Assembly: GCA_902774265.1 (NCBI GenBank) | Contig: CACYHR010000053.1 | Span: 1-35,978, forward strand | From: an uncultured Eubacteriales bacterium | GTDB taxonomy: Bacteria > Bacillota > Clostridia > Peptostreptococcales > Anaerovoracaceae | Direction: 5' to 3' | Length of the DNA: 35,978 bases | Part shown: positions 11,562 through 35,191 of the stretch, in pieces | Layout: each line of letters opens with the position of its first letter | Position numbering within the stretch: the stretch's first letter is position 1 | Position numbers and translations under genes: made by a program | Notes under the pieces: generated by a model | Databases searched by the model: none | The model's input: only the letters and a program-made list of their open reading frames with translations | Told to the model about the DNA's origin: nothing

Positions 11562-11585
11562 TTCATCGATTTCCTCACTGGCGGA

Positions 11586-12437: not shown

Positions 12438-12472
12438 CTCTACTCCTGTTATTATTTAATCAGCGTTCCTGT

Positions 12473-12501: not shown

Positions 12502-12538
12502 GTCAGTATATTTCTGCATCAGGACCTGCCTTCGGACA

Positions 12539-12616
12539 TCATAAATTGCAGCTGCGAAAGCTGCTGAAATAATAGTAACCGAAAGCATTCTCATAAGCGA
12601 ATTTGTGATTATTCAT
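12539..12616 (-). CDS. Phe/Tyr-rich leader peptide of the aromatic operon
   Basis: A 25-codon reading frame beginning MNNHKFAYENAFGYYYF. Four Phe and four Tyr make 8 of 25 residues, with an uninterrupted Tyr-Tyr-Tyr-Phe run at residues 14-17. AAAGGG precedes the ATG by seven bases and a TTGACT-17-TAAAGT promoter lies upstream. The stop codon is followed after 37 bp by a perfect intrinsic terminator. This is the architecture of pheA/tyr-type transcription attenuation: when charged tRNA-Phe or tRNA-Tyr is scarce the ribosome stalls on the aromatic codons and the terminator does not form. The peptide itself has no expected function after synthesis. Confidence 0.85.
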   Translation of the reverse strand: MNNHKFAYENAFGYYYFSSFRSCNL

Positions 12617-12649
12617 AAATTTTCCCTTTAAATTAGTGAATTTATATGT

Positions 12650-12678
12650 ACTTTAGTGCAAATTTTATGCAAAGTCAA
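12650..12678 (-). promoter_or_regulatory. Promoter of the pheA-aroB-aroEK-aroA-aroG operon
   Basis: On the minus strand TTGACT (12673-12678) and TAAAGT (12650-12655) are exactly 17 bp apart. Upstream, two copies of AATTGGG (within 12679-12700) and two of GGGCTTG(G)AC could be operator sites. It faces the promoter of the divergent aroF-like gene. Confidence 0.6.
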
Positions 12679-12768
12679 GCCCAATTAATCCCCCAATTGC
12701 TTTATTTTTAGTCCAAGCCCTTTGCGCCGGGCATTGCCGAAAGTATGGCGAAGGTAACTGTGAAATTG

Positions 12769-12774
12769 TATAAT
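12769..12774 (+). promoter_or_regulatory. -10 element of the aroF-like/tyrA operon
   Basis: A consensus TATAAT lies 66 bp upstream of the aroF-like start. No good -35 is seen at 16-18 bp, so an activator or a weak promoter is likely. There is no leader peptide or T-box on this side. Confidence 0.4.
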
Positions 12775-12842
12775 ACCATATATTACAGATGAAAATTTCA
12801 GATTTCCGTACAACAGGTAAATCGGGATTGTGAGGATTAATT

Positions 12843-13847
12843 ATGATAGTAATACTGAAGCATGGTGTTACAGATGAAAAAAGAGATCAGCTGATACGCT
12901 GGTTCGAATCGCAGGGATTGGGTGTCGATATTTCAAAGGGTGAGTTCCAGACTATACTTGGACTGATCGGAGATGTTCTGTCGCTTGATACGGATATGAT
13001 AGAAAGCCTTGATATAGTTCAGGCAATACGCAGGGTCACCGAACCGTTCAAGCGATGCAACCGAAAGTTCCAGCCTGAGGACAGCATAATCTCAGCAGGT
13101 GACACTCTCATAGGCGGAGGAAATTTTGGCATTTTTGCCGGTCCTTCTTCGCTTGAAAGCGAGGAGCAGGTCATCTCGATCGCAAAGAGCCTCAAAGCCT
13201 CTGGCGCGAATGTCCTGATCGGCGGAGCTGTCAATCCGCGCGTCACTTCTTATATCATTCAGGAACAGAATCTCAGAGAGATCGGGTATCTTGTATCAGC
13301 CAAAAGAGCGACAGGCATGCCTGTTGCCAAAGAGATCCTTTCTGTAGAAGATGTTCCGAGATATGAAGACATCGACATTCTCCTGGTGGGCGAGCGCAAT
13401 ATGACCAATTATCCGCTGCTTGCAGAACTCGGATCTATGCAGAAACCGGTGATCCTCAAGCGATCTGTTTCTGCAACACTTGAAGAGCTGCTGATGGCCG
13501 CGGAATACGTCATGGCAGGCGGTAACAAGAATATCATCCTGTGTGAACGCGGAATCAGGACTTTTTCTGATTATACGAAGGCTACACTGGATATTGCCGC
13601 CATACCTCTCCTTAAGGAACTGTCACATCTGCCTGTAATTGCGGATGCCAGCAGGAGCACAGGGCTCGGGCGTCTCACCGGTCCTGTCTCTAAAGCGATA
13701 TGTGCTGCCGGAGCTGACGGACTGATTATAGATGTTCATAACGATCCGCCGCATTCAGCCTTCAACGGCAATCAGGCTGTTACGGTAGAAAGTTTTGCGT
13801 CAATAGCAGCAGATATTTCAAGAATTCATGAGGTGATTACAAAATGA
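12843..13847 (+). CDS. aroF: DAHP synthase class I-beta homologue with substituted metal ligands
   Basis: A 334-residue protein of the Thermotoga/Bacillus-type DAHP synthase family. Residues 1-70 are the ferredoxin-like regulatory domain and 80-334 the TIM-barrel core. Core motifs are recognisable (GERNMTNY, LKRSVSATLEELLMAAEY, ILCERGIRTFSDYT, SHLPVIADAS). All four metal ligands known from T. maritima appear changed: Cys in GPCS is Ser102, His in DPSH is Arg271, Glu in EVHP is Asp297 and Asp in SDGxQ is Asn308. The Lys of GGAfKPR is Asn131. I infer it no longer makes DAHP and may be a regulatory pseudoenzyme or have a new reaction. It overlaps tyrA by ATGA, and GAGGA lies seven bases before the start. 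Confidence 0.88.
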   Translation: MIVILKHGVTDEKRDQLIRWFESQGLGVDISKGEFQTILGLIGDVLSLDTDMIESLDIVQAIRRVTEPFKRCNRKFQPEDSIISAGDTLIGGGNFGIFAGPSSLESEEQVISIAKSLKASGANVLIGGAVNPRVTSYIIQEQNLREIGYLVSAKRATGMPVAKEILSVEDVPRYEDIDILLVGERNMTNYPLLAELGSMQKPVILKRSVSATLEELLMAAEYVMAGGNKNIILCERGIRTFSDYTKATLDIAAIPLLKELSHLPVIADASRSTGLGRLTGPVSKAICAAGADGLIIDVHNDPPHSAFNGNQAVTVESFASIAADISRIHEVITK

Positions 13848-14671
13848 TAATCGGAGTAGTGGGGCTTGGCCTTATAGGAGGCTCTTTCGTCAAGTGTTAT
13901 CATGCCCAGGGTCATACTGTTTACGCGTATAACAGATCACGAAAAACTATTGATTTCGCTTTGCTCAGCGGTTATGTCGATGCCGAACTGACAGAAGACA
14001 ACGTGTCCGAGTGCGATCTCATAGTTGTGTGTATGTATCCTGAGGCGTCAATTGAATGGATCAGATCGATGGCTCCGTATTTCGGACCGGGACCGATCGT
14101 TATGGATGCCTGCGGTACCAAGCGCAATATATGCGAAGAATGTTTCAAGCTTGCAGAAGAGTACGGATTTACTTTCGTCGGCGGTCATCCGATGGGCGGC
14201 ACCAAGTTCTCCGGATATAAATATTCAAAACCGGATATGTTTCGCGGCGCCCCTATGGTCATAGTACCGCCGCGTTTTGACGATATCGATCTGTATGCCA
14301 AAATCAAAGATCTGCTGGCTCCTCTTAATCTGGGGCGCTATTCCATTACAACGGCCGAAGATCATGACAAGATGATCGCATTCACATCCCAGCTGTCGCA
14401 TCTTGTAGCCAGCTCATACATTAAGAGTCCTTCTGCCGAGAGACAGCGGGGTTTTGCAGGAGGCACATACCGGGATATGACCAGAGTGGCGTATCTCAAT
14501 GCGCCGATGTGGGCAGAGATATTCATAAGTAATAAAGACTTTCTGCTCGCAGAGCTCGATAGTCTTATAGATAATCTAAAAAAATACAGAGCTGCCATCA
14601 GTGAAGAAAAGGTAGAAGAACTCACAGAGCTTCTTGAAGACGGCGCCCGCCGTAAAGAAACACTGGGATAA
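13844..14671 (+). CDS. tyrA: Prephenate dehydrogenase
   Basis: A 275-residue TyrA that oxidatively decarboxylates prephenate to 4-hydroxyphenylpyruvate for tyrosine synthesis. The NAD-binding motif GVVGLGLIGGS is at the N-terminus. HPMGGTKFSG and TSQLSHLVASS carry the conserved substrate-binding histidines, and GGTYRDMTRVAYLNAPMWAEIF is the family signature helix. There is no ACT domain and no fused chorismate mutase, so the mutase of PheA must supply prephenate. It overlaps the aroF-like gene by four bases, implying translational coupling and perhaps physical interaction of the two products. Confidence 0.95.
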   Translation: MIIGVVGLGLIGGSFVKCYHAQGHTVYAYNRSRKTIDFALLSGYVDAELTEDNVSECDLIVVCMYPEASIEWIRSMAPYFGPGPIVMDACGTKRNICEECFKLAEEYGFTFVGGHPMGGTKFSGYKYSKPDMFRGAPMVIVPPRFDDIDLYAKIKDLLAPLNLGRYSITTAEDHDKMIAFTSQLSHLVASSYIKSPSAERQRGFAGGTYRDMTRVAYLNAPMWAEIFISNKDFLLAELDSLIDNLKKYRAAISEEKVEELTELLEDGARRKETLG

Positions 14672-17185: not shown

Positions 17186-20100
17186 CTACTTAACTTTAAT
17201 CTTTATCTTCCTGTATACACCATTCTGAGCATATACGTATACATTACATGTGCCTTTCTTCCCGGCCTTTATCTTTCCCGTCTTACTCACTGTTGCCACA
17301 CTCTTGTTGCTGCTCAGGTAGCGCAGCTTAGGTGCATAGCTCACCGGCATCAGTTTTTTACCCTTATCGAGTCTGATGACACCGGCTTTGATCGTATAAG
17401 TCCTGCCCTTCTTAAGAGACACTTTCGCCTTCTTTACTGTCACACGCTTTGCGGCCGTATAACCGGCCTTGCTTCCCGATGTACAGGCATATACCGTCGG
17501 ACTCTTCTTTCCATAGACCTTCTTGCTGCCGTCCATGACCCATGGCCTGACGTACGCCTTGTATGCGGTCTTCTTCTTCAGACTCTTCTTTGTCCATTTG
17601 ATGGTCTTATCTCCCTTGATCGTTTTTACCAGTTTAGGCGTATTTTTCTTTCCGCCTTTTGCCAGGAATATATCATAGCCATCCGCACCATAGATCCTGT
17701 TCCAGGAGAGTGTGAGACTGCTGCTTCCCTTAGACGCAAGTTTTGCCATAAGTATGGCATTCTGCGCAGATCCCGATTCGGCAGCTCCCGTAAAATCAAC
17801 GGTTACCGTCACCGGATAAGCCGGCATCATGAAGCTTCCCGTGAAGACATTATTTGCCCCGGTCATATCCAAATTTTCGTAAAGGATCGAACCATCCTCT
17901 GCCGATGCTACAGTGACCTTAGGTGAATATGCACCTTTCGGTCTTACTGAAACGATGACTTCATCTCCTTCAAACGTTTTGGTTTTATTGATTTCAGCGG
18001 TTCCATGCCAGATGTTTTTATTGCTGAAACTGATGTCATATGACTTGTCAGCACTTAGGATGACCTCCCCTTCTGTGCTCACTCCGGTCAGATAATCAGC
18101 GTTGTCGCTCACAAAACATCCTGTCGCGCCCTGATGCGTGCCGCCCGGAGAGAACCCGTCAGTAATAATGACCGAACTTCCGGTCTGCGGCGATACGGCT
18201 GTAGTAATCCCTATCAGAGCTTCCGACTGAAGGGTACCGGTGACAGTAATCGTTTTGTCTTTCTCCAGATATACATTTCCGATATCTTTTCCGATATCTT
18301 CAGAGGCTGAACTTCCCGATTCGTCCTGGTAGTACCTGGAATTGCCGCTGATGACCGGTTTGTCTTTTATTTTGAAGGCACCATCAATGAACCTCACGCC
18401 GCATCCTTTGCCGCTCATCTGCCCGTTGCGTGATATGGTGCCGCCGCTCATGGTGAATTCGGCATTGTTTCCTTCGATTGTGACACCGCCTCCTCCGTGA
18501 AGATTTTTAATGAGTGAACCCAGGGTGTCAAACATACCCGTATTCCCGACTATGTCTCCGCCGCTCATGTCAAATGACCCGCTGATGATCTGTACGCCTC
18601 CCGTAAGCATGCCCGTATTTTCGGATATGGCGCCGCCGCTCATGGTGAAAGTACCGCCCGAGACCTCAACGCCTCCTGCTATGACTCCACTGTTGCCGGT
18701 CAGGTATCCGCCGGTCATAATGAACTTTCCATTGTTCAGTATGGTCACTCCGCCGGAGTTACTGTCGCCGCCTAATTTTCCGTCACCGGTGTTTTCGGCA
18801 ATACTGCCTTTCTCAAGCGTTAAGCTTCCCCCGTCGACTGTGACGCCTCCGGCTTCAGTCAGACTGTCTCCTCCTTTTATCACACCTTCTCCACGACGAC
18901 TGCTGTCGGTGATCCGCAGGTCTCCTTTTACCATTATGACGCCACCGTATTTCTCGCTCTTTATACGGTTGCGGTTTATTACATGGCCTTCCAGGTCGAG
19001 AACGACCGTCTTTCCTTCAGGAACGATCAGCATACCGTCTTCTTCACTGCCGCCATTATCAGCGATATAATCGGAATCAAGCGTGACCACGCCGCCCTCG
19101 GCTATCTTCGCTTTCAGCTCACTCCAGGAGCTGCTCCATACCGCTTCCAGCACAGTATCTTCAGTGATGTCCGCGCTCATTCCCGCAGCCTTGATCTCAC
19201 CGGTATCCCCGATCTTCCAGCCGACGAAAACCCTGTTGTCAGGTGATGTGAACAGGCATTCAGGCAATGTGTAGCTGATATCATTTGCCGCAATGACCGC
19301 ATCCATCTGCCCTGTGCCGCCGCCGCCGGCAAAGCTGATCATTACAAGCCCGTGGCCGCACTCGCACACAGGATCGTCCACGGTCCCGCTGTGCGCTTCG
19401 GTTTTTTCATATCTGCATATAGTGCAGGTTTTTGTATGGGTAGTTGAGCCGGCTTCGTACGCCCACACATGATGTGATGACGCGTCAAGCTTATCCCAGA
19501 CTGTTCCGCAGTTCGGGCAGCTGCCGATATGATATGTTTCATCACGGGTACTGATTTTTGCGTTCCTGTGATCACACGGCATGATCACGAATTTGTTGTA
19601 AACGTTGCTCCTCTCTTCAAGAGCTCTGCGTCTTTCTCCGGCTGCCGGGATGACTTGCTGATTATTTGGTTTGGTGGCTATGACCATGCAGTCAGGATAG
19701 TCGAATACATCTATATGACCGGTGATGGTTCCGTCACTGTCTTTTGCTCCTTTGCCGAAGACCTTGGATTCACCGGAATAATCAGCTGTAGAAGCAGTGA
19801 TCATTCCTCCGGTGATATTGACTATTGCAGAGCGGGCATATGCGCCGCTTCCGATAGCAGCACTGTAATCGTGGGCTCCCGATGTTAAGCCGAGAGTCGA
19901 TGCTGTAGCTGTAACATTGCCGCCGCTGATATTAATTGTGTATCGGCCGTGTGAGTCCTCTCCGTTACCGATACCGGCGCCGCCCTGAGATCCTTTCGCT
20001 GTAACTGTTCCTCCTGTGATGTTGATGACACAGTCGTCATGAACATCTCCGTGCTTGCCGCCTCCGCCGATGCCTGCGCTGTTTCCACCGGCAGTAGCCG

Positions 20101-20671
20101 TGACCGTGCCGCCTCCTATGGTGACACTGCTGACATTTCCGGAATCGCTGCCGCCGATACCCGTGCCGTACCATGAATAAGCTGTGATCACGCCTCCATA
20201 GATGGCAATAGATCCGGCATACTCTCCATAAGTATTTGTCGTCTTATCGCCTCCTATGGCCGCGCCGTAGTCACCACTTGTTGCCCTGAGCTTTCCACTT
20301 TGCCTGCTTTGCCCGTATATGGTCAGGCTGCTGCCGTTCGGTACATGGATGCCCGAAGAGCAGTTAAGATTGGCGCCATCCTCAAGAATGATCTTTACGT
20401 TGCCTGATATCTGAACTCGAGGGCCGAACTTGAATTCTTTCCCCGTATTCCCGGCTACGTACCAGCCTCCGTTGACGTCTCCGCTCAGCCTGAAACCATC
20501 CATACCGTTAAGCATTGTATATGTGCTTATGCTCTGTTCACTGCCGGACTCGTCAATGTAAGTTACGGCGCTGTCCGCGTATGCAGGTCCCATCGCCAGC
20601 AGAAATGCCGCGCAAATCGCGGCTGAGACTACCGGCACAAGCACCGTTATCAGTTTACCCTTTCTTCTCAT
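17186..20671 (-). CDS. Large secreted beta-helix/FnIII/Ig-like surface protein
   Basis: A 1161-residue secreted protein. Residues 1-33 are a signal peptide (MRRKGK, hydrophobic core, AYADS). Residues about 60-320 and 570-800 are parallel beta-helix-like regions built of Gly/Ser/Thr-rich repeats (GGTVTATAGGNSAGIGGGG; MSGGAISENTG-type units). Between them lie a Cys/His-rich stretch (CPNC, CTIC, CECGHG; about 370-450) and an InlB B-repeat-like segment (VGWKIGDTGE). The C-terminus has a fibronectin III-like domain (about 980-1065) and a bacterial Ig-like (Big_2) domain (VATVSKTGKIKAGKKGTCNVYVY). There is no LPXTG or SLH anchor. A carbohydrate-binding or adhesive role is plausible but unproven. 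ATG 20671 has GGGGAG upstream and is preferred to the upstream TTG at 20701. Confidence 0.88.
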   Translation of the reverse strand: MRRKGKLITVLVPVVSAAICAAFLLAMGPAYADSAVTYIDESGSEQSISTYTMLNGMDGFRLSGDVNGGWYVAGNTGKEFKFGPRVQISGNVKIILEDGANLNCSSGIHVPNGSSLTIYGQSRQSGKLRATSGDYGAAIGGDKTTNTYGEYAGSIAIYGGVITAYSWYGTGIGGSDSGNVSSVTIGGGTVTATAGGNSAGIGGGGKHGDVHDDCVINITGGTVTAKGSQGGAGIGNGEDSHGRYTINISGGNVTATASTLGLTSGAHDYSAAIGSGAYARSAIVNITGGMITASTADYSGESKVFGKGAKDSDGTITGHIDVFDYPDCMVIATKPNNQQVIPAAGERRRALEERSNVYNKFVIMPCDHRNAKISTRDETYHIGSCPNCGTVWDKLDASSHHVWAYEAGSTTHTKTCTICRYEKTEAHSGTVDDPVCECGHGLVMISFAGGGGTGQMDAVIAANDISYTLPECLFTSPDNRVFVGWKIGDTGEIKAAGMSADITEDTVLEAVWSSSWSELKAKIAEGGVVTLDSDYIADNGGSEEDGMLIVPEGKTVVLDLEGHVINRNRIKSEKYGGVIMVKGDLRITDSSRRGEGVIKGGDSLTEAGGVTVDGGSLTLEKGSIAENTGDGKLGGDSNSGGVTILNNGKFIMTGGYLTGNSGVIAGGVEVSGGTFTMSGGAISENTGMLTGGVQIISGSFDMSGGDIVGNTGMFDTLGSLIKNLHGGGGVTIEGNNAEFTMSGGTISRNGQMSGKGCGVRFIDGAFKIKDKPVISGNSRYYQDESGSSASEDIGKDIGNVYLEKDKTITVTGTLQSEALIGITTAVSPQTGSSVIITDGFSPGGTHQGATGCFVSDNADYLTGVSTEGEVILSADKSYDISFSNKNIWHGTAEINKTKTFEGDEVIVSVRPKGAYSPKVTVASAEDGSILYENLDMTGANNVFTGSFMMPAYPVTVTVDFTGAAESGSAQNAILMAKLASKGSSSLTLSWNRIYGADGYDIFLAKGGKKNTPKLVKTIKGDKTIKWTKKSLKKKTAYKAYVRPWVMDGSKKVYGKKSPTVYACTSGSKAGYTAAKRVTVKKAKVSLKKGRTYTIKAGVIRLDKGKKLMPVSYAPKLRYLSSNKSVATVSKTGKIKAGKKGTCNVYVYAQNGVYRKIKIKVK

Positions 20672-20703
20672 ACTCTTTTCTCCCCGTTTTGTCGTTGCCA
20701 AAT

Positions 20704-20945: not shown

Positions 20946-21257
20946 TCAGGCAAATGCAGCAGCACAAAGACACGTTCCAATAAAAGATGTAGAAATTGTT
21001 ACCCCCCATGATAATCTTTCTTCATCAGACCCTCCTCCTGCGGCTTTTGCAAGGTCTTCATCTGACAGTATCCCTTCCTGTTCCGATAAATTATAGATTT
21101 GTGTCATTGTCTCCTTGAATTCTTCAAAAGCGAGTCCATCCTGCACGGAGCTTGCGATCGCATAGGCTTCTTTTGAGGATTTGCATGCTTTCATTTTCTG
21201 CATCAGTTCTTCATCTTCTACCAGTTTCTGTAAAAACAGTTTCATTTCTTCTTTCAT
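20946..21257 (-). CDS. Nif11-like leader RiPP precursor peptide A1
   Basis: A 103-residue precursor. The leader (residues 1-76) has the Nif11-like helical pattern MKEEMKLFLQKLVEDEELMQ, then EAYAIASSVQDGLAFEEF, and ends with SDEDLAKAAGGG, a double-glycine cleavage site. The core of about 27 residues starts SDEERLSWGVTISTS and continues FIGTCLCAAAFA; it has seven Ser/Thr and two Cys. Class II lanthipeptide precursors have this layout, and the LanM gene is immediately upstream in the operon. The ATG at 21257 has AGAGGA nine to ten bases upstream; an in-frame ATG at 21281 gives a non-family extension. Cleavage would need a C39-type protease, which is not in the window. Confidence 0.92.
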   Translation of the reverse strand: MKEEMKLFLQKLVEDEELMQKMKACKSSKEAYAIASSVQDGLAFEEFKETMTQIYNLSEQEGILSDEDLAKAAGGGSDEERLSWGVTISTSFIGTCLCAAAFA

Positions 21258-21336
21258 CGTGTTTTTTCCTCTCTGCCGCAATTAACAGCAATTCATCTTT
21301 AATGTCCGGTTTCTTGCTTTCTATTTCTTCTTTCAT
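21211..21336 (-). CDS. Small charged reading frame between the two precursors
   Basis: A 41-codon frame starting MKEEIESKKPDIKDELLLIA. It begins 24 bp after the A2 stop and overlaps the A1 start in another frame. The first residues MKEE match the precursor leaders, but the rest is only charged and helical, with no double-glycine and no core. There is no clear ribosome-binding site. It may be the fossil of a third precursor that recombined, or a chance frame. Confidence 0.25.
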   Translation of the reverse strand: MKEEIESKKPDIKDELLLIAAERKKHDERRNETVFTETGRR

Positions 21337-21359: not shown

Positions 21360-21656
21360 TCAGACGTACGCCGCTAACCCGGCAGCAGCGATTCCACTAC
21401 ACACAGTAGCAAAAACCGTATCACCCGAATCACCTGCACCGCCTGCAGCCTTTGCCAGATCTTCATCGGTCAGCTCAGCAGTCGTCTGCTCATAAAGCTC
21501 CGCCGTCGCTTCTGTAAATTCCTCAAAGGTAAAACCATCCTGCACGGAGCTGGCGATCACATAAACTTCTTCAGGAGACTTGCACGACTGCATCTTTTCC
21601 TGTAGTTCCCTGTCCTCTGCCACTTTCTGAAAAAATAGTTTCAGTTCTTCTTTCAT
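21360..21656 (-). CDS. Nif11-like leader RiPP precursor peptide A2
   Basis: A 98-residue precursor with the same leader as A1 (MKEELKLFFQKVAEDRELQEK, EVYVIASSVQDGFTFEEF, LTDEDLAKAAGG). The core is about 25 residues: AGDSGDTVFATVCSG followed by IAAAGLAAYV. It has only four Ser/Thr and one Cys and a hydrophobic, Ala-rich end. GGAGG lies eight bases before ATG 21656, which supports that start over the in-frame ATG at 21671. The gene starts 90 bp after the LanM stop, so all three are likely one transcript. With one Cys it could form at most one lanthionine ring. Confidence 0.92.
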   Translation of the reverse strand: MKEELKLFFQKVAEDRELQEKMQSCKSPEEVYVIASSVQDGFTFEEFTEATAELYEQTTAELTDEDLAKAAGGAGDSGDTVFATVCSGIAAAGLAAYV

Positions 21657-21745
21657 CCTTATTACCTCCAACGATCTTACATAGCTAGCATAGTAAGTAT
21701 ATCACAACTATCTTCAAAACATGTCGCCTTTTTGTAACACAGAGC

Positions 21746-24448
21746 CTACATCCATCGCAGGTAAGCGCTGAGGATGCATCCTATTCCCGTGGTACCCATG
21801 GCTAAGGAGGAGTCAAAGAAGCTCCGCACTCCTTCAGCCGTGACATGGAAGACCCCGTTTTCATCTTTACGGCGTATCATAGCGCCCAATATCTGTCCGG
21901 CTTTATCCGCCAGAGCGGGCTGCCTCTCCGCAAGTCTCATGCAGCACAGCGCAGTCAGAGCGTTGCCGTTGTTGAGACTGTCCACGGTCAGAAGCTCTTT
22001 TTCATCATCAAGGCTTTCGATAGCCTGCTCAAGCACATCCCGCGCAGATTCGCAGTCGAGCCATCTCAGGCAATGATCCGCAGCAAGCCCTATGCCGGCA
22101 GCGTATGGATCTCTTTTGCCTGCCCACTGCATGCCCTTCGACGGCGCTGACCATCCTTTTTTATAGCTGTTGTATTCGGATCGCAGGCCGTCGAAGATTT
22201 TTTCAGCCCCTTCGGCAAAGCGGTCCTTTCCCGTGTATCCGTAAGCATAGGCCAGAGCGGCCGCCATACCGGCGCTGCCGTACAGGCCGTCCATTTTTGC
22301 CGCCGGCAGTCCGTCAAGTATCTCATCCGCCAGATGAGTCACTGTTTTGGCCGGGATATCCGCATTTATGAGCGAGCAGGATACAAGAAGTCCGGCGGTC
22401 CCGCACTGCACGTTCCAGGGATGGCATGTGCCCTTTTCACCGTCCGAATATTTGTGTTTTTTCTGTATCTCAGCGGCCTTTTCCAGACCTGCCTTCTTCA
22501 TCTGCTCAAGCGACAGCAGTATCCCTCCGAATCCCGCGCCCAGTCCGCCAGTCATGCGCTCTGTATTTCTCCCGTCGGAATGCAGGGCATCCAGATAGGT
22601 CTCCATTCCATGCAGGCACTGCCCGGCCAGCGAATAAGCCCTGTCATGCATGTCGCTCAGCTCCGGATCATCAAGCACCATGGCACACAGCAGTCCTGTA
22701 TCAGCCCACGAAGTAAAGATCCCGCAGGATACAAGGTTCTCCGTGCCGGCGATCGTGCTTACCCAGCTCACTGTTTTTCCATCGGAGTGTATCAGCTTCT
22801 CATCTTCAAGAGCCGACAGTGCTTTCTCTTTTCCTAATGCCTGTCCGTCCAGTTCGTAAGACCCGCCGCTACCGGCTTCACTCAGGGCCACGTGTGCCAG
22901 ATTATTGCGAATCAGACTTTCCTCAAATTTCTCTTCCTTTTCGGAAAGACGTGAAAGCCTCTTTTTGAGTATGTCGATCCCTGAGCTGAGAAGGAATCCC
23001 TCCTGTATGACCCGGCTTCTGTCTTCGCCGCAAAGGGCGTGCGATCTGATGCCGCTGCAGTAATACGGGATATCTCCGTCCATCATGCTGTCAGCCTCAT
23101 ATTTAACGATCGCGTCATTCGTGTACAGTCCGTTTACGTCAAATGGTATGCGCAGATCGGCAAGAAGCTTCGCCTGTCTGTCCGGATCGGACAGAGCTTC
23201 AGGAGCAAGCAGCCTGCTCATCATGAGACCGTAATAATATGAATTGCGAACGATTATCCTCAGCGTTCCGCCAATGTATCGCTCAAGCATCGGCAGTATC
23301 TCATCGCGGGCTTTTATCATGCGCGAATAGCCTTCCCTGAAGCCCTCAATGAAGTCTTCCTCATAACCCATTACGGTATACGCCTTCCCCTCAAACCGAG
23401 GCAGACATTTATTGCTGCTGAATTCAGCATAAAGAGGTGAGATTATGCCCATCCTGTGCAGTCTGACAGGAAATGCTCCGCAGCTGAGAACGCTGTACCT
23501 GTAATCATCCCACGGTGCTTTATCCATGACGCCGATATCCTGCTGAGGCACGTCCCCGTCAGATATCTTTGCCTGAGGTTTCGCTTTATATGAAAAGACT
23601 GTCTCGAGATCGAGCGCGCAGGGGAACTCGCCGCAGCTCATGATGTTCTCGCCGTGCATGTCGGTGCTTCCGAGCGCATGGAATCCGGCTGCCAGGCAAC
23701 CGAAGTTACGGTAAAATCGCCTGATACCGTCAATGTCACTCACTTCGGAATGCTCAAGTCCCTGTATGAAGGCGTAATCGCCCCGGTCTATGACCGCAGG
23801 AGCAATGGTGCAGTCCGAAAACCATCTGTCTGTGAATTCACGGTAAAACGCGTCAAGGCTGCAGTTGTGCGGCTTGTAAAAGCATGTGCCCGCATCTGTC
23901 GTTACACCGATGACAGTCTGACCGTGCCTGTGCATGTCGGCGCCGCTGTCGCTTAGCCTGAGCACCTGCGTGAATTGCCGCCCGCCAAACAGCTCTTTGG
24001 ATATCTCAGCACTGTCCGCCGCAAGCCTCTTTACGAAGGTCTTCTTGCTCGAGATGAAGGATCTGCGGATCGATTCCTCAAAGCCCTTTACCAGGAAGTA
24101 TTTTTCGCGCAGAGCTTTGCCTTTATCTTTAAGGATCTCTTCTCCGGCAGTCCTGCAGGCCGAGTCTATGGCTTCGGTATTCCCGCCTTTCATGGTGAGG
24201 TATTCCCGGATGTCGAGCTCCTTGATGTGCTCCCTGGCAGAAAAGACGAGTATCTGCGTGAACGGTGCACCAGCCTTTTTTATATAGTCTTCTTCAAGAT
24301 CCTTTACCGCATCCGCGCTTAACAACGCTGCTGCGCCGGCATCAGCCGATAATACTTCCGCAACAGCTTCCCTTGCATCTTCTCTGAGAAAAGCGTAAAC
24401 GTCGTTTATCTCCAGAGCCTCTATCCAGTAATTCCTGTATTCATCCAT
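21746..24448 (-). CDS. lanM: LanM-type lanthipeptide synthetase with zinc-ligand-less cyclase domain
   Basis: A 900-residue class II lanthipeptide synthetase. Residues about 80-520 are the DUF4135 dehydratase, which phosphorylates and eliminates Ser/Thr to Dha/Dhb. Its catalytic set is present: D171/H173 (GADMHRHG), K192 (CFYKPH), D263/H265/N268 (STDMHGEN) and D280/E282 (ALDLET). Residues about 570-900 are LanC-like, with repeated GxxG barrel motifs (GGLGAGFGG, QCGTAGLL, DGLYGSAGMAAAL, GTTGIGCILSAYLRW). The zinc motif WCHGxxGIG reads RDPYAAGIG (780-787), and the CHGN motif reads NNGN (826-829). So by eye all three zinc ligands are lost, and ring closure may be uncatalysed or absent. AGGA precedes the start. 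The gene now lies directly downstream of an IS110 insertion in the opposite direction. Confidence 0.93.
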   Translation of the reverse strand: MDEYRNYWIEALEINDVYAFLREDAREAVAEVLSADAGAAALLSADAVKDLEEDYIKKAGAPFTQILVFSAREHIKELDIREYLTMKGGNTEAIDSACRTAGEEILKDKGKALREKYFLVKGFEESIRRSFISSKKTFVKRLAADSAEISKELFGGRQFTQVLRLSDSGADMHRHGQTVIGVTTDAGTCFYKPHNCSLDAFYREFTDRWFSDCTIAPAVIDRGDYAFIQGLEHSEVSDIDGIRRFYRNFGCLAAGFHALGSTDMHGENIMSCGEFPCALDLETVFSYKAKPQAKISDGDVPQQDIGVMDKAPWDDYRYSVLSCGAFPVRLHRMGIISPLYAEFSSNKCLPRFEGKAYTVMGYEEDFIEGFREGYSRMIKARDEILPMLERYIGGTLRIIVRNSYYYGLMMSRLLAPEALSDPDRQAKLLADLRIPFDVNGLYTNDAIVKYEADSMMDGDIPYYCSGIRSHALCGEDRSRVIQEGFLLSSGIDILKKRLSRLSEKEEKFEESLIRNNLAHVALSEAGSGGSYELDGQALGKEKALSALEDEKLIHSDGKTVSWVSTIAGTENLVSCGIFTSWADTGLLCAMVLDDPELSDMHDRAYSLAGQCLHGMETYLDALHSDGRNTERMTGGLGAGFGGILLSLEQMKKAGLEKAAEIQKKHKYSDGEKGTCHPWNVQCGTAGLLVSCSLINADIPAKTVTHLADEILDGLPAAKMDGLYGSAGMAAALAYAYGYTGKDRFAEGAEKIFDGLRSEYNSYKKGWSAPSKGMQWAGKRDPYAAGIGLAADHCLRWLDCESARDVLEQAIESLDDEKELLTVDSLNNGNALTALCCMRLAERQPALADKAGQILGAMIRRKDENGVFHVTAEGVRSFFDSSLAMGTTGIGCILSAYLRWM

Positions 24449-24473
24449 AGATTATCCTCATGCTATCTTCAAC

Positions 24474-24488
24474 CAGGAGCAAAGCTCC
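24474..24488 (+). repeat. Left subterminal inverted repeat of the IS110-family element
   Basis: CAGGAGCAAAGCTCC, itself a GGAGC/GCTCC hairpin, recurs in inverted orientation at 26154-26170 as CAGGAGCTGAAGCTCCC. Subterminal inverted repeats are known in the IS1111 branch of IS110. The true ends of the element are probably some bases outside. Confidence 0.4.
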
Positions 24489-24559
24489 AACAAGCTCGCT
24501 ACTACAATGTATTTATGGTTAATACTCCCAACATCCAGTTTGGATATTATCCATCTTAT

Positions 24560-24720
24560 TGCTTAGGCTGTTAGAATGAGTGAGGCAATCGGTCTGACTA
24601 CAAGCTCACTGGACTCCCGTCCGTAATCAAGTCAGTCAACCAGCCCTCATTCGCAGCGTTCGTTTTACGCAGATTGAACTTTCGCGTTCGTGTAAATACA
24701 CCAGTAGATTGAATAGGCAA
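24560..24720 (+). ncRNA. Putative bridge RNA of the IS110 element
   Basis: The non-coding region upstream of the transposase can fold into nested stems: GAATGAG (24574-24580) with CTCATTC (24646-24652), inside it CTGACT (24594-24599) with AGTCAG (24630-24635), and inside that GGAC-TCCC-GTCC (24611-24622). A second domain follows with GCGT/ACGC and GAAC/GTTC hairpins. IS110 elements of the upstream-RNA type encode a two-loop bridge RNA that pairs with target and donor DNA; position and layout agree. The exact ends are unknown. Confidence 0.5.
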
Positions 24721-24772
24721 TGAGAGAAGCTGGCCCCGGCCATTGCTAATAACTATCAAAGGAGTATTTATC

Positions 24773-25993
24773 ATGTTGAACGCAGTTGGTATCGATGTCG
24801 CAAAACGCAAGAGTACCGTCACGATCAGGAGGCCCGGTGACGAGATCGTACTTCCTCCATGTGACATCCATCACAACCAGTCAGAGATCAATGATCTGAT
24901 TGCCTTCATCAAGAGCCTCAATGGCGAGACTAAGGTCTGCATGGAACACACCGGCAGATACTATGAGCCTATGGCTTACTGGCTTTCCAATGCAGGTATC
25001 TTTGTCAGTGCCGTCAACCCTCTTCTGATCAAGGACTTCAAAGATGAGGATTCATTCCGAGCTCCTAAAACAGATAAGGCGGATGCAGCTAAAATAGCTC
25101 GATACACTCTTGACCGCTGGACCAAACTGAAGCAATATGGTCGTATGGACAAGATACGCAACCAACTCAAGACAATGAACAGGCAATTCGGGTTCTACAT
25201 AGATCAGAAAACTGCTATGAAGAACAATCTCATCTCTCTTCTCGATGAAACATATCCCGGAGCCAACAACTTCTTTGACAGCCCTGCTCGTGAAGACGGC
25301 CATCAGAAGTGGGTAGACTTTGTGTATACCTACTGGCATGTCGACTGCGTCAGGGGCAAGTCTCTTAAAGCCTTTACTGAACATTACCAGAACTGGTGCA
25401 AACGTAAGGGCTACAATTTCAGCGTGCGCAAGGTCAAGGAAATCTATGAAAAGTCCTCCGACCTTATCGCCATGTTCCCCAAGGATGACAACACCAAAAT
25501 GCTCGTCCGTCAGGCTGTAGATGTCCTGAATTCGACCTCTGCTACAGTTGAGATACTTCGCAGAGAGATGGATAAAGCCGCCTCTACACTCCCTGAATAT
25601 CCTGTCGTCATGGCTATGGATGGCGTTGGTCCTACTCTTGGACCTCAGCTCATGGCTGAGATCGGTGATGTCACCCGGTTTACCAAGAGAAGTGCGTTAA
25701 CGGCATTTGCCGGAGTTGATCCTGGCGGGGATCAGTCAGGAGACCATGAACGCAAAAGCAATCGCACCTCCAAGAAAGGATCTCCACATTTAAGAAAAAC
25801 TCTTTTCGTTGTCATGGATGGCATTCTGAAACGCTCACCAATGGACAACCCTGTCTATCTGTTCATGGATAAGAAGCGTTCTCAGGGAAAACCCTACCAT
25901 GTCTATATGACTGCCGGAGCTAACAAGTTCCTGCGCATTTACTATGGACGTGTTAAGGAGTATTACGAAAGCCTCGAAGAATCCAAGGAGTAA
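24773..25993 (+). CDS. IS110-family transposase (DEDD recombinase)
   Basis: A 406-residue transposase. The N-terminal RuvC-like domain carries the DEDD residues: Asp8 in VGIDVAKRKST, Glu in VCMEHTGRYYEP, and two Asp in KTDKADAAKIARY. The C-terminal Transposase_20 domain has MAMDGVGPTLGPQLMAEIGD and FAGVDPGGDQSGD, where the Ser is the recombinase nucleophile in characterised members. It appears full length and intact, so the element may be active. AAAGGAG lies eight bases before ATG 24773; the upstream in-frame TTG at 24743 is unlikely. The enzyme would work with the upstream bridge RNA. Confidence 0.93.
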   Translation: MLNAVGIDVAKRKSTVTIRRPGDEIVLPPCDIHHNQSEINDLIAFIKSLNGETKVCMEHTGRYYEPMAYWLSNAGIFVSAVNPLLIKDFKDEDSFRAPKTDKADAAKIARYTLDRWTKLKQYGRMDKIRNQLKTMNRQFGFYIDQKTAMKNNLISLLDETYPGANNFFDSPAREDGHQKWVDFVYTYWHVDCVRGKSLKAFTEHYQNWCKRKGYNFSVRKVKEIYEKSSDLIAMFPKDDNTKMLVRQAVDVLNSTSATVEILRREMDKAASTLPEYPVVMAMDGVGPTLGPQLMAEIGDVTRFTKRSALTAFAGVDPGGDQSGDHERKSNRTSKKGSPHLRKTLFVVMDGILKRSPMDNPVYLFMDKKRSQGKPYHVYMTAGANKFLRIYYGRVKEYYESLEESKE

Positions 25994-26153
25994 TAACCCC
26001 AACAACCAATACACATCTCCTGCCGATGCACTGCATTGGCTTTGTTTGGTTTCTTAAAATCCAACCTGTATAAAATTTTCAAAGTTCGTCAAAATCTGCT
26101 TGACTTTCTATTTGCAGACTTGATTGGAGCGAGCGACGCCGTCAACAGACACC

Positions 26154-26170
26154 GGGAGCTTCAGCTCCTG
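26154..26170 (-). repeat. Right subterminal inverted repeat of the IS110-family element
   Basis: On the minus strand CAGGAGCTGAAGCTCCC, matching the left repeat at 24474-24488 except for two or three bases. It forms a GGAGCT/AGCTCC hairpin. Confidence 0.4.
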
Positions 26171-26173
26171 AGA

Positions 26174-26206
26174 GCATCAGTGGGGGATTGTTACCCACCA
26201 CTGATG
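26174..26206. other. Strong hairpin at the right IS boundary and YcaO stop
   Basis: CATCAGTGG pairs with CCACTGATG, and the inner GGG pairs with CCC around an ATTGTTA loop with a single bulged A. The YcaO stop codon lies in this hairpin, so the last about ten codons of YcaO derive from it. It is probably part of the mobile element and may act as a terminator or as a structural end. Confidence 0.6.
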
Positions 26207-28018
26207 GTCGAAAATGGCTAACGAGCTCAGTCTGTCCAGCAGCTCCTGCTGCGAAACCCTGCTGTCCTTCATGGCGTCCTTGATCCTGATAAGGATCTCT
26301 TCCTCGACCATATTATCGCAGCCTTTGCCGTTCAGTTCACAGTTCTCACAGTCAAAGCATTTTATCCTCGGGAAGTTGCGCCTGAGTATGCCGTCCGGAT
26401 CTGCCGCTTCATCTCTGATGCGTGACGCATTCTCTTCTCCAAACAGCGCTGACACCAGATTGAAGGCGCCTTCATCGTCCAGTCCCATCACGCGGGCCCT
26501 GCACCAGTGTGACATAGCCTTGTAGTATACACATTCATTATCATCGGGATAATATGTCACAAGTTTTTTAAAGAAATGCTTCGCGACCTCATAGTCCCCG
26601 CGTTTGAACGCGATGAATGCGGCTATCCTGTCTGTATTCATCCTGTCGTCAGTGACAGGCCGTCCGATGATGGCAACAGGCGTGTTCTCGATGAACGAGT
26701 TCTCTTTGAAGCGTATTATCCTGAGTATGGAATCCTCCTCCTCCGCTGTGATTTCAGGGAAATGAGCGAAGGCATCCTGCGCTCTGCAGGCGGTCGTGTT
26801 CGTCCTGAGATACGTGCCGCCTATATTGTACATTTCGGTATATCCCGGCACCACTATCTGGACTGCAGGGAATCCCATGTGTGAGCTGTCCCTTATGAAC
26901 ATATGCCATCCGTCACGCTCAGCCATGCTGATCATGCGGGCGACAAACTCCTTGTTGTTCCCGCCTTCCCACTCAGTCCACGGTCTGTATTCCCAGTCAG
27001 GCTTGCCGCTCAGAAGCGTTGCGGGATAGACTCCGACATTTACCTTCATTATGTTTGGGATATTGTGATAGGCTTCGGCCTGTTCTTTGCTTCCGTAAGT
27101 GTTGACAGAGCTTATCTCGTCTACGTTCCTGCCCTGGAGAGCTTCTGTCAGAGTCCGCTCCACAGCCACTGCCATCGAAGGATGAGAGCCCAGCTTGACT
27201 CCGAAAGTGCCGTTTTGACGGTCCGTTATTATTGAAGCCGCGACAGGGAAGCCTTTTCCGAGAGAACAGTCCCTCACGGATATATGATATCTTCCGTCGC
27301 CTTCGATCTCCTTTATAAGACCCCATATGCTGTACTTTTTCAGTTCTTCTTCGGGTATCTCAGGCGGCACGGCCTGTCCTGTGAGGATCATCTTGTTGAC
27401 ATAACGCTCATAGACCTCGCACATTCCCTGCACTATCGCCTCTTCGATGGTATTGCCCGCCGCCATCCCGTTGGAGCCGCACGAAAAATACACTGCTGCA
27501 CACGGAATATATACGACCTTGCCGTCACTTACATCGGCAAACGGCACCGTTGTTATCTTTCCGTCATTTCTCTTCTCGTAAGATCTGGCATATTTCATCA
27601 GGATCAGCTGTTTTGCTGCCGGGTTATCACATCCGAGCTTTTCAAAGATAGCCCTCAGAAACGCATCGTCCTGTTCTTCGACCTCCGCTACCGGAACTGC
27701 TTTTTCGTCAGGAAAGAGAACGAAGTCTCCGTGTTCTGCCACTCTCGGACGAAGCGTTGCCATGGAAAGCCTGACATTCTGGATGCGCTCCATCAGTTCC
27801 GCATATCCGCTTGCGCTCGCATAGAGCCTGTCAGTACCCTTGCCGTTGGTGCCGAGCGCCGACGGATACAAAGAAACGCGATTACAGAAAGCACCGTCGC
27901 TCTTGTTGTCCATCCAATCCATGACGGTAAACAGTCCCGCTTTGTTCAGGATTTTCTGTACCCTGAAGATAGTATCCCTAGGATCATTATCTTTATATTT
28001 GTTATAATTGGTCTCCAT
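26177..28018 (-). CDS. YcaO-family ATP-dependent cyclodehydratase-like protein, altered C-terminus
   Basis: A 613-residue YcaO protein. ATP-site motifs are GTNGKGTDRLYASASGYAELMERIQ (residues 56-80), SNGMAAGNTIEEAIVQGMCEVYERY (182-206) and TEALQGRN. YcaO enzymes use ATP to activate peptide backbone amides for azoline, thioamide or amidine formation. The C-terminal part is TPR-like (GDYEVAKHFFKKLVTYYPDDNECVYYKAMSHWC), as in the stand-alone E. coli YcaO, and has a four-Cys cluster (Cys554, 557, 560, 567). No E1-like or TfuA partner is present. The last residues DHQWWVTIPH come from the hairpin at the IS boundary, so the native end was probably replaced. The start overlaps the flavoprotein gene by 17 bp. 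Confidence 0.9.
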   Translation of the reverse strand: METNYNKYKDNDPRDTIFRVQKILNKAGLFTVMDWMDNKSDGAFCNRVSLYPSALGTNGKGTDRLYASASGYAELMERIQNVRLSMATLRPRVAEHGDFVLFPDEKAVPVAEVEEQDDAFLRAIFEKLGCDNPAAKQLILMKYARSYEKRNDGKITTVPFADVSDGKVVYIPCAAVYFSCGSNGMAAGNTIEEAIVQGMCEVYERYVNKMILTGQAVPPEIPEEELKKYSIWGLIKEIEGDGRYHISVRDCSLGKGFPVAASIITDRQNGTFGVKLGSHPSMAVAVERTLTEALQGRNVDEISSVNTYGSKEQAEAYHNIPNIMKVNVGVYPATLLSGKPDWEYRPWTEWEGGNNKEFVARMISMAERDGWHMFIRDSSHMGFPAVQIVVPGYTEMYNIGGTYLRTNTTACRAQDAFAHFPEITAEEEDSILRIIRFKENSFIENTPVAIIGRPVTDDRMNTDRIAAFIAFKRGDYEVAKHFFKKLVTYYPDDNECVYYKAMSHWCRARVMGLDDEGAFNLVSALFGEENASRIRDEAADPDGILRRNFPRIKCFDCENCELNGKGCDNMVEEEILIRIKDAMKDSRVSQQELLDRLSSLAIFDHQWWVTIPH

Positions 28019-28778
28019 CTGATTCTCTCTTTACCTTTCTCACATATTCAGCAAAAGATCCGCAGTCCGCCACTCCGCGCTCCAGGCAGACCTTTATCTC
28101 ATCCCAGTGTTCTATGCCTGCTATTTCTTTCAGGACCACGGATTGTTTTATGCTCCTGACTCTGCCTATCCATAACTGCTCCTGTATTTCCGTTATAAAC
28201 GAAGCGGGATCTTTGCATGCTGCGATCAGCCTCTCTGCAGCGGCATCCATGACAGGCCCTGCTTCATCCTCCCTGTTGATGTTCGGCGACCTGTAATTCA
28301 TCACAGTTATCGCATCTGCCACGGAAAGTCCCAGAAAACTCATGTACTGCTTCAGGCGGTCTTCGAGGCCCGGATCGATGCTGGAATCAGTTGATGCAAT
28401 GGTCACGCAGGCTTTTCCGGCCAGATCGTAGCGGTGGCTCCAGTATGTCAATCTGTCTATCACTGTCTTTGTGATGCCGGACATATCCCAGAGGTATACC
28501 GGCGTGCACAGAAAAACAGCATCGGCTTCCAGCAGCTTTTGCTTGAGCAAAGGCATGTCGTCTGTCCTGTCCAGCGGGCATATCCCTGTTTTAAAGCACG
28601 ACGCACAGCCCCTGCAGTGCTCTATCCTGAGCTGATCCGCCGTTATGCACTCATAGCTTACCCCGATGCCCTCTTCTGCCGCCTTTCTGATGACATGTTC
28701 GGCAAGCATGTCGGATGCTCTCTTCGTATGTGATTTTTCTCCCATGAAGGAGCCTGCAAAAGATATTATTCGCAACAT
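28002..28778 (-). CDS. Flavodoxin-fold NAD(P)H-dependent FMN oxidoreductase
   Basis: A 258-residue protein of the NADPH-dependent FMN reductase/iron-sulfur flavoprotein type. The N-terminal flavin phosphate loop is FAGSFMGEKSHTKRASD, then CRGCASCFKTGICPLDRTDDM (residues 55-75), and TPVYLWDMSGITKTVIDR (about 91-108), which contacts the isoalloxazine. The Cys cluster could hold an iron-sulfur centre or be redox-active. The C-terminal 80 residues are an extension of unknown role. It is the first gene of the minus-strand RiPP unit and overlaps YcaO. In that context it may oxidise azolines or reduce dehydroamino acids, but this is inference from position only. Confidence 0.88.
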   Translation of the reverse strand: MLRIISFAGSFMGEKSHTKRASDMLAEHVIRKAAEEGIGVSYECITADQLRIEHCRGCASCFKTGICPLDRTDDMPLLKQKLLEADAVFLCTPVYLWDMSGITKTVIDRLTYWSHRYDLAGKACVTIASTDSSIDPGLEDRLKQYMSFLGLSVADAITVMNYRSPNINREDEAGPVMDAAAERLIAACKDPASFITEIQEQLWIGRVRSIKQSVVLKEIAGIEHWDEIKVCLERGVADCGSFAEYVRKVKRESDGDQL

Positions 28779-28897: not shown

Positions 28898-29659
28898 TTA
28901 TCCATATTTCAACGCTTTTTCGATTATTTTCTTTGAAATCCCTGTCAGCCTGCTTAACTGACGTATTGAGATTCCTCTACGTATGAGTTTTCGTATCGAC
29001 AAATATAGATCCTGACGTTCATCAGGCTTCCCGACTGCAGGTTTGAACACCCGGAATTCTTCAAGAATCATTTCCGTAGCCTTATCGTCTGTCAGCCTAA
29101 CAGGTATTGTATCATCTATTTCGAGAAATTTGTCATCATTATTGATCGATACGAATTCTGCCAATGAGGTTGGCGTTAATAAAGAATATGCGTATTCTGT
29201 ATCCGATATTCCTGTCTCACCGCACAAGTATTCCCGTCCGCTGCTGAATGCATATTCATCCGGGCTTTTACATAAACCCGCTACAACAGGATTTCTCAGA
29301 ATGTACCGTAATGCCGCAATGAAATACTGTTCACAATCGATTACCTCACTTTTGAACCTATCCTGAAACAGATGACCGGTTCTTTCGTATTTCCCGTTAT
29401 ACCAATACACAAAAGAGTCTGCGATCCGCTTCATTGCGAGCGACAGAGGTTCCTTTTGCACGCGTATCAGCAAATGTACATGATTACCCATCAGGCAGTA
29501 TGCAAACAGATTGTATCCAGATTTTTTTTTATACTTGCTAAGTAGTTTTATAAAATACACATAGTCAGCTTCTTCATAGAAAATCTGCTGTCTGTTGATG
29601 CCTCTCAGCATTACATGATATATCCCTGATTCACTAATTTTTCTGGCTGTTCTTGGCAT
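28898..29659 (-). CDS. REP-associated HUH transposase (Y1_Tnp)
   Basis: A 253-residue protein. Residues 1-130 are the HUH single-strand nuclease domain: the opening MPRTARKISESGIYHVMLRG is typical of RAYTs, the metal-binding histidines are in YCLMGNHVHLLI, and the catalytic Tyr is in AALRYILRNP. The C-terminal part ends in a helix-turn-helix (GISIRQLSRLTGISKKIIEKAL). RAYTs nick and rejoin REP hairpins. The domain looks intact. Upstream Shine-Dalgarno is weak (GGGGA), as often in transposase genes. Confidence 0.92.
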   Translation of the reverse strand: MPRTARKISESGIYHVMLRGINRQQIFYEEADYVYFIKLLSKYKKKSGYNLFAYCLMGNHVHLLIRVQKEPLSLAMKRIADSFVYWYNGKYERTGHLFQDRFKSEVIDCEQYFIAALRYILRNPVVAGLCKSPDEYAFSSGREYLCGETGISDTEYAYSLLTPTSLAEFVSINNDDKFLEIDDTIPVRLTDDKATEMILEEFRVFKPAVGKPDERQDLYLSIRKLIRRGISIRQLSRLTGISKKIIEKALKYG

Positions 29660-32141: not shown

Positions 32142-32447
32142 TTATAGAGCCATCCAGCCCACATAAAACGATACTACCGTCCAGGCCGAGGTTACGGATA
32201 CAATAATGGAATCGGTACTAACTCCGCCTGCAGCCTTTGCAAGGTCTTCATCTGTCAGTTCCTGATTATTCTCATGTACTTCCTGCAATTTCTGCCCTGC
32301 TGCAACGAATTCCTCGAATGTAAAACCATCCTGCACAGAGCTTGCAATCGCATAAGCTTCTTCCGGGGATTTGCATTCCATCAGCTTATGCCGCAGTTCC
32401 TCGTCTTCTGCTACCTTCTGTAAAAACAGTTTGATTTCTTCTTTCAT
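32142..32447 (-). CDS. Nif11-like leader RiPP precursor peptide A3, Cys-free core
   Basis: A 101-residue precursor whose leader closely matches A1 and A2 (MKEEIKLFLQKVAEDEELRHK, EAYAIASSVQDGFTFEEF, LTDEDLAKAAGG). The core starts VSTDSIIVSVTSAWTVV and ends SFYVGWMAL. It has eight Ser/Thr and no Cys, so it can be dehydrated but cannot form lanthionine. It lies about 8 kb from lanM, beyond the IS, RAYT and phosphatase genes. It has its own TTGAAA-16-TATAAT promoter and GGGAG eight bases before the ATG. The leader similarity implies the same modification enzyme. Confidence 0.92.
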   Translation of the reverse strand: MKEEIKLFLQKVAEDEELRHKLMECKSPEEAYAIASSVQDGFTFEEFVAAGQKLQEVHENNQELTDEDLAKAAGGVSTDSIIVSVTSAWTVVSFYVGWMAL

Positions 32448-35165: not shown

Positions 35166-35191
35166 TAAAATCACCTCCATTCTCTACAGAA

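Follow-up and report, generated by a model that had tools for sequence, protein, structure and literature searches.

We analysed a stretch of 35,978 nucleotides (hereafter the window) of contig CACYHR010000053.1 (C53), assembly GCA_902774265.1, from an uncultured Eubacteriales bacterium of the family Anaerovoracaceae, and focused on a gene for a LanM, i.e. a protein of the class II lanthipeptide synthetase family, whose cyclase half has no zinc ligands. Its reading frame (21746..24448, minus strand) is intact, starts with ATG and encodes 900 amino acids, comprising a DUF4135 dehydratase half and a LanC-like half. From high to low coordinates, the minus strand carries an NADPH-dependent FMN reductase-like flavoprotein (28002..28778; PF03358, 6.1e-15), a YcaO of the E. 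coli YcaO type (26177..28018; PF02624, 7.1e-49) whose start is overlapped by the flavoprotein gene and, beyond an IS110-family element on the plus strand (24501..26118), the LanM followed by two Nif11 precursors, A (21360..21671) and B (20946..21281). A third precursor, C, lies apart on the same strand (32142..32447).

Pfam recognised DUF4135 in the LanM (1.8e-55) and LANC_like below threshold (1.2e-4, 21.3 bits for a cut-off of 23.2); in the genome-wide search LANC_like reached 24.6 bits for the LanM open reading frame (ORF) taken with its neighbours. The NCBIfam model for type 2 LanM (TIGR03897) scored 262.1 bits, under its curated cut-off of 304 bits, and the confident match to the solved structures LicM2 and CylM ended at about residue 574. 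The kinase and lyase residues D171, H173, K192, D263, H265, N268 and D280 (codons spanning 23609..23938, minus strand) align with the active sites of CylM and LicM2, i.e. with the P-loop and catalytic residues of CylM, and are invariant in an alignment of eight LanMs. A preliminary description of this DNA had listed these seven, and we add two elimination residues, R397 (Arg506 in CylM) and S403 (Thr512 in CylM), the latter position being Ser here and in two other LanMs and Thr in the remaining rows; the roles of the CylM residues are those given in excerpts of PMC4550811. The dehydratase half of a class II LanM, i.e. a DUF4135 domain with its kinase and elimination residues, is present.

The second half of such an enzyme, i.e. 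a LanC domain with Cys, Cys and His or Cys as zinc ligands and a His as acid, is not. By alignment, the zinc site is at D780, N826 and N827: in two MAFFT alignments and in a profile-profile alignment (hhalign, probability 98.8), Asp780 (22109..22111) replaces the first ligand Cys, Asn826-Asn827 (21968..21973) replace the Cys-Cys or Cys-His ligand pair, and Tyr723 (22280..22282) stands in the column of the acid His (NisC His212 type), all codons being on the minus strand. The LanM of a full-length relative, in locus L025, has Ala, Tyr, Asp and Met in the same four columns. The three ligand replacements agree with the assignment that the preliminary description had made by eye. It had also pointed to Cys675-His676 and Cys682 as residues that might occupy the zinc site instead; they lie outside the site columns and are all absent from the L025 LanM, where the stretch is mostly gap, and this alternative site was rejected. 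Cys575, Cys588, His601, Cys611 and His792, common to the window and L025 LanMs, do not fall in the site columns either, and their sole match in other rows is a His at 601 in L068. Six LanC glycines (G639, G642, G785, G828, G885 and G888) are invariant in the alignment of eight LanMs, so that the LanC fold is probably retained. As a check against chance or error, the ORF is intact and the L025 LanM, 32-34 % identical over the whole length, lacks the same ligands. An assembly-wide search for a second cyclase acting in trans returned one DUF4135 ORF and one LANC_like match, both being the window LanM.

For comparison, LanMs were retrieved from overlapping genome sets, i.e. two sets at family level (296 genomes, six with a match, and 349 genomes, eight with a match), one of the genus (47, four), one of the order (393, five) and one of the class (391, 13). 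Neighbourhoods were read for most LanMs found, i.e. 25 loci including the window, with 27 LanM ORFs; from the class-level set, those of the partial L054 and L055 were left out, and the region L049 (read as L082) holds no LanM ORF by the dehydratase profile. YcaO genes were sought inside loci of 5-20 kb, and their absence is not proven on short contigs, e.g. L065 and L066. Three of the 27 ORFs are adjacent to a YcaO: that of the window (with the IS110 element in between), that of L025 and L022-A, one of the two LanMs of locus L022. None of the three has any zinc ligand in the full-length alignment (3/3). The other ORFs with a readable cyclase half keep the three ligands in 20 cases out of 22 and the acid His in 19 out of 22, the 22 being obtained after removal of these three and of L076 (551 aa) and L081 (632 aa), which were not assessable. 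These counts are uncorrected for kinship: the 22 include L078 and L079, whose dehydratase halves are identical. They also include L022-B, which is separated from a YcaO by about 3 kb. The placement of the L022-A motifs differs between alignments, a truncated copy putting a Cys (TCGG) in the second column where the full-length alignment gives no ligand. L065 has lost the first Cys together with its loop, and the second Cys too; L075 carries Asn at the first ligand and Gln at the third. L065 (G009:C467) and the LanM at L022:13648-16782 form a related pair with Cys-free Nif11 cores nearby and the acid His changed to Tyr in both; in L065 the zinc loop is gone as well, and the pair may show an intermediate stage of cyclase loss.

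Phylogenetic trees were built for each half. Before the first MAFFT alignment, three ORFs were removed as duplicates and four as partial (L047, L053, L054 and one of the two of L052), L018 and the other L052 ORF were further excluded from both trees and L014 from the cyclase tree; a later tree held 26 of the 27 rows, one partial ORF being dropped. The window and L025 LanMs pair with each other (support 100/99 in the dehydratase tree and 100/100 in the cyclase tree), and this pair is sister to zinc-bearing LanMs of the same genus in a clade of five rows (100/100 and 86/93, respectively), i.e. the LanMs of the window's own genus keep the zinc site. Two of these zinc-bearing sisters adjoin precursor-like ORFs with Cys after a double Gly (L020:10121-10351 and L062:8519-8737). 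By profile hidden Markov models (HMMs), the C-terminal half of the window LanM scores 46.6 bits for LanM versus 30.9 for the class III enzyme LanKC, and for that of L025 LanM alone is listed (30.8 bits). Two zinc-bearing sisters taken as controls score 175 and 197 bits for LanM, and 41 and 43 for LanKC, so that a LanKC cross-match of the size seen in the window is background. The cyclase half is the more diverged one in both zinc-less proteins: the ratio of cyclase to dehydratase identity is 0.67 (window) and 0.70 (L025) towards the sister L062 and 0.87 between window and L025, whereas it is 0.97-1.01 when three zinc-bearing sisters are compared with one another and 0.89-0.94 for three further pairs. 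Both the HMM scores and the tree, which contained neither CcaM nor LanKC, speak against a class III origin of this half; it is probably a decayed class II LanM domain and not an acquired class III one. L022-A stays apart from the window and L025 pair, on a long branch (2.44), a single origin being recovered in 0 % of 200 bootstrap trees, and this makes at least two losses of the zinc ligands likely.

The L025 locus, from the metagenome-assembled genome Lachnospiraceae bacterium RGIG3762 (roe deer abomasum), encodes a LahSB, two YcaOs, one directly adjoining the zinc-less LanM, an FMN reductase (46 % identical to the window flavoprotein), a radical SAM protein with SPASM domain, six Nif11 precursors, a second radical SAM protein, a 177-aa ORF without Pfam match, a C39 transporter and another ABC protein. 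Its methyltransferase is a LahSB orthologue (6uak, 406.7 bits, 4.5e-121; next match 75.2 bits), and its C39 domain is nearest to LahT147 (6mpz, 180.7 bits; next 44.2). A LahSB orthologue, 56 % identical to that of L025, was also found in the window's own genome, on a contig (C25:48861-49757) other than that of the LanM. Around it lie a YcaO 78 % identical to that of the window, a Nif11 precursor and C39 transporters, two of which match that of L025 (842.6 and 589.7 bits); the genome-wide search for the C39 family gave three matches, all outside the window. Large proteins, one with List_Bact repeats, flank this LahSB, and a DUF5714 protein (L019:3537-4247, G000:C25) stands immediately upstream of this second YcaO-Nif11 locus. 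The L022 locus, from the same family as the window genome, holds a LahSB-YcaO fusion, a YcaO directly adjoining the zinc-less LanM, the zinc-bearing LanM, two FMN reductases and ten Nif11-like ORFs. The fusion (L022:7838-10627, 929 aa) joins a LahSB-like methyltransferase, 42 % identical to that of L025, to a YcaO 30 % identical to that of the window.

All three precursors of the window are recognisable as Nif11 proteins. Precursor A (PF07862, 2.3e-9; TIGR03798, 6.2e-13) has after its GG the core AGDSGDTVFATVCSGIAAAGLAAYV, with one Cys and a C-terminal Val; precursor B (PF07862, 1.4e-5, above cut-off; TIGR03798, 25.4 bits, under the cut-off of 32.3) has the core GSDEERLSWGVTISTSFIGTCLCAAAFA, with two Cys; and precursor C (TIGR03798, 1.3e-11) has the core VSTDSIIVSVTSAWTVVSFYVGWMAL, with no Cys and eight Ser/Thr. 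The cores of the window are 25-28 residues long, with 0-2 Cys and 4-8 Ser/Thr. Five Nif11 matches were found genome-wide at E <= 0.1, three of them over the cut-off and three of the five in the window; the cores on contigs C25 and C27 have one Cys and none, respectively. Cys is absent from every one of the six L025 and ten L022 cores, the four beside the zinc-less L022 LanM included. LahSB methylates C-terminal Val, Ile or Met according to excerpts of the literature on that enzyme, and such ends are found in all six L025 precursors (Ile) and in window A and C25 (Val); window B (Ala) and window C and C27 (Leu) fall outside this preference. At another locus, L068 (G374:C7), a zinc-bearing LanM with an FMN reductase is surrounded by twelve Nif11-like precursors; each has a C-terminal Trp, preceded by Arg in seven of them, and ten are without Cys past the first GG.

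The YcaO of the window is 48 % identical to YcaO1 of L025, and a profile of six such YcaOs has E. coli YcaO (4q84) as its best match. Its last 13 codons and stop are supplied by a dispersed repeat. A C-terminal stretch of four Cys (CFDCENCELNGKGC in the window), perhaps a metal or Fe-S site, occurs in this YcaO (26177-28018) and in L019:4288-6114, L025:2373-4184 and L025:4203-6020; the YcaO L022:4250-6091 is without it. No TfuA or other YcaO partner protein was found among the neighbours scanned, and no SagB-type dehydrogenase (TIGR03605) in the assembly, which is 90.8 % complete. Among solved-structure sequences the flavoprotein matches two only, 1sqs (SP1951) and 7d38 (Cd1). At the level of its family it is a candidate dehydroalanine reductase of the D-Ala-forming LanJB type, as described in excerpts of PMC7268733. 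FMN reductases are also frequent beside zinc-bearing LanMs (e.g. L070, L072 and L078), so that their presence is not specific to the zinc-less state.

The IS110 element, which is not part of the pathway, carries its transposase at 24743-25993 (plus strand; NF033542, 1.5e-57), and its borders were set by eye against empty copies of a palindromic REP-like repeat (repetitive extragenic palindromic), in which it sits (24468-24500 and 26119-26217). The empty copies indicate insertion at a CT dinucleotide, CT being present at both ends. The repeat has at least 44 matches in the genome including itself (40 of 124 candidates scored), and the matches listed include no further copy of the IS110 body. 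An IS200-like Y1 transposase (28898-29659; Pfam, 3.7e-13) is a candidate REP-associated tyrosine transposase for this repeat family. Elsewhere in the window lie a secreted-looking beta-helix/Big_2 protein of 1171 aa adjoining the precursors (17186-20701), a likely toxin-antitoxin pair (34580-35180), formed by a RelB-like antitoxin (Pfam, 1.7e-11) and a 96-aa ORF that overlaps it and has no Pfam match, and a gene cluster for the aromatic amino acid pathway (7060-14671), which encodes two DAHP synthases and a fusion of shikimate dehydrogenase with shikimate kinase. A search of plasmids (147 records) gave no match to the LanM with at least 80 % query coverage; the 15 matches listed are LanMs that share 21-26 % identity with the query and cover no more than half of it, one of them without annotated feature. 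A scan of viral contigs with the alignment of the window and L025 LanMs found no relative, and a scan for consensus promoters and terminators gave chance level only.

Taken together, we consider it probable that the window LanM serves as the dehydratase of a lah-type pathway for ribosomally synthesised and post-translationally modified peptides (RiPPs), i.e. that it dehydrates Ser and Thr in the cores of Nif11 precursors and closes no enzyme-directed thioether rings. Ring closure would be lost because both the zinc site and the acid of the LanC half are gone, and the lah-type assignment is suggested by L025, where the gene types of the window are accompanied by a LahSB orthologue and by a transporter resembling LahT. 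In such a pathway, the Nif11 leaders would be bound, the YcaO would modify the core backbone, the LanM would phosphorylate Ser and Thr and eliminate the phosphate to give dehydroalanine and dehydrobutyrine, and the FMN reductase may reduce some dehydroalanine to D-Ala; LahSB would then methylate C-terminal Val, Ile or Met, and a C39 transporter would cleave after GG and export the product. Zinc-ligand mutants of lacticin 481 synthetase reportedly still dehydrate, with impaired cyclisation (Paul 2007). CcaM, a zinc-less LanM next to a YcaO, yields according to excerpts of PMC10676384 a product in which eight amino acids are in the dehydro form and lanthionine is absent, and needs its retained cyclase-like domain for dehydration and not the leader. 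A structural or core-recognition role of the LanC-like half is at least as likely as the leader binding proposed in the preliminary description, because of this behaviour of CcaM; most likely, the half props up or positions dehydratase and core. The uncyclised, dehydrated product expected in that description is in line with homology, with the lacticin 481 synthetase mutants and with CcaM; spontaneous rings, which it also mentioned, may still form, two of the three window cores having Cys. It had named Nif11-like precursors but neither the cluster with YcaO and FMN reductase nor the published family.

Several observations weigh against this interpretation. Cores A and B hold one and two Cys, a composition that would still allow rings; the assembly, being incomplete, may lack a separate cyclase; and the IS110 element may have separated the expression of the YcaO from that of the LanM. 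Zinc loss without visible YcaO also occurs (L065, on a contig of 5.3 kb, and L075). Ten of the twelve precursors around the zinc-bearing L068 LanM are Cys-free, so that a Cys-free core alone does not imply zinc loss, and ten Cys-free cores surround the zinc-bearing LanM of L022, whose locus also holds two YcaOs, at a distance of about 3 kb in one case. Because Cys-free cores near zinc-bearing LanMs are common, we trust the dehydratase interpretation slightly less than we otherwise would, and two of its rivals slightly more.

The best surviving rival, although unlikely, is a strict dehydrazole enzyme, i.e. a LanM acting only on Ser beside azoles, the latter being products of the YcaO and of a dehydrogenase. 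The association of a zinc-less LanM with a YcaO is that of CcaM and LanMbC, but no dehydrogenase of the TIGR03605 type was matched in the assembly, the leaders are Nif11 and not nitrile-hydratase ones, the cores offer at most two Cys, the YcaO is of the E. coli type with no partner among the neighbours scanned, and the cyclase half is nearer to class II than to class III. Somewhat less credible still is that the LanC half cyclises without zinc, cores A and B, with their Cys, becoming true lanthipeptides. Class III LanKC enzymes are thought to cyclise without zinc. Excerpts of PMC7268733 describe LanKC cyclase domains without zinc ligands, but here the acid His is also lost (Y723; Met in L025), and neither the six L025 cores nor the four beside the zinc-less L022 LanM contain Cys. 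That the gene is simply decaying, with a dead cyclase, an operon broken by IS110 and the LanM being lost, would fit the insertion between YcaO and LanM and the faster divergence of the cyclase half, but is improbable given 900 open codons, the invariant dehydratase residues and LanC glycines in eight LanMs, and the zinc-less state of L025 as well: its locus has no IS110 at this place, so that zinc loss probably predates the insertion.

The dehydratase interpretation has consequences for annotation, as family-based methods would tend to name the protein a lanthipeptide synthetase, and the rings thus predicted probably do not form at all; these clusters predict instead linear dehydrated peptides, possibly with D-amino acids. 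The window LanM is apparently a member of a small family that works beside YcaO enzymes and had been glimpsed before: zinc-less LanMs beside YcaO have been published (Pei 2023, citing Huo 2020), and excerpts of PMC10676384 state that all LanMs of YcaO-associated networks lack the zinc residues, that one such network includes the earlier cluster of Huo 2020 and that lah has a YcaO with LanM. The family itself being known, what may be new here is the evolutionary twist, i.e. the probable decay of a class II cyclase half, which is worth testing. In the literature searched, which lacked the text of Huo 2020 and so is not proof, we found no account of this cluster, of a class II origin of the decayed cyclase, of the contrast in YcaO adjacency (3/3 vs 20/22) or of at least two losses. 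The zinc-less pair and its zinc-bearing relatives of the same genus form a clean natural system for the role of LanC in a dehydratase after loss of cyclisation, and raise the question of whether selection on the zinc site is relaxed by a YcaO partner or by cores without Cys. A bolder idea, tentative and on balance doubtful, is that YcaO partnership drove repeated, independent cyclase loss, turning LanM into a pure dehydratase with a dead LanC half as scaffold; with FMN reductases, such enzymes would make a large, barely explored family of Cys-poor Nif11 peptides rich in Ala, Val, Ser and Thr, with dehydro or D-amino acids, a YcaO-modified backbone and a C-terminal methyl ester.

Compared with known systems, the window LanM shares with ordinary class II LanMs (CylM, LicM2 and ProcM) the dehydratase residues and the LanC glycine pattern, but has neither zinc ligands nor acid His. 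With class III LanKC it shares a LanC-like domain without zinc ligands, but LanKC dehydrates by dedicated kinase and lyase domains (PMC7268733, in excerpts), and the C-terminal half of the window LanM scores lower to LanKC than to LanM. The dehydrazole enzymes CcaM and LanMbC likewise fuse a DUF4135 dehydratase to a zinc-less LanC-like domain and stand beside a YcaO; they differ in having nitrile-hydratase and not Nif11 leaders, in their azoline dehydrogenase partner (no SagB match here), in cores rich in Ser, Thr and Cys (few Cys here) and in the cyclase type (described as class III for LanMbC in the same PMC10676384 excerpts; class II-like and decayed here). The lah pathway of Lachnospiraceae bacterium C6A11 (LahM1/M2, LahSB, LahT and LahA1-9; Huo 2020), whose LahM1/M2 are presented as unusual class II synthetases in excerpts of the review PMC10373908, differs in that the genes are here split over C53 and C25, IS110 parts YcaO and LanM and two window cores have Cys, and it possibly differs also in the FMN reductase that overlaps the YcaO start here; the likeness is one of gene types and core ends. 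Both have several double-Gly Nif11 precursors and a YcaO with LanM; LahSB has orthologues in L025 and in the genome of the window, and L025 also has a C39 domain like that of LahT. In the primers given in excerpts of PMC6363468 (Bobeica 2019), six of seven LahA cores end in Ile, Val or Met; LTAIRKALM and NSWSRIAS are less like the cores here, and the other five of the seven ends, LTNFAAGAI, SLFAATAI, AASSAGAV, AVTMSLLAV and ALSLSLSAM, are rich in Ala, Ser, Thr and Leu, as are the cores described here.

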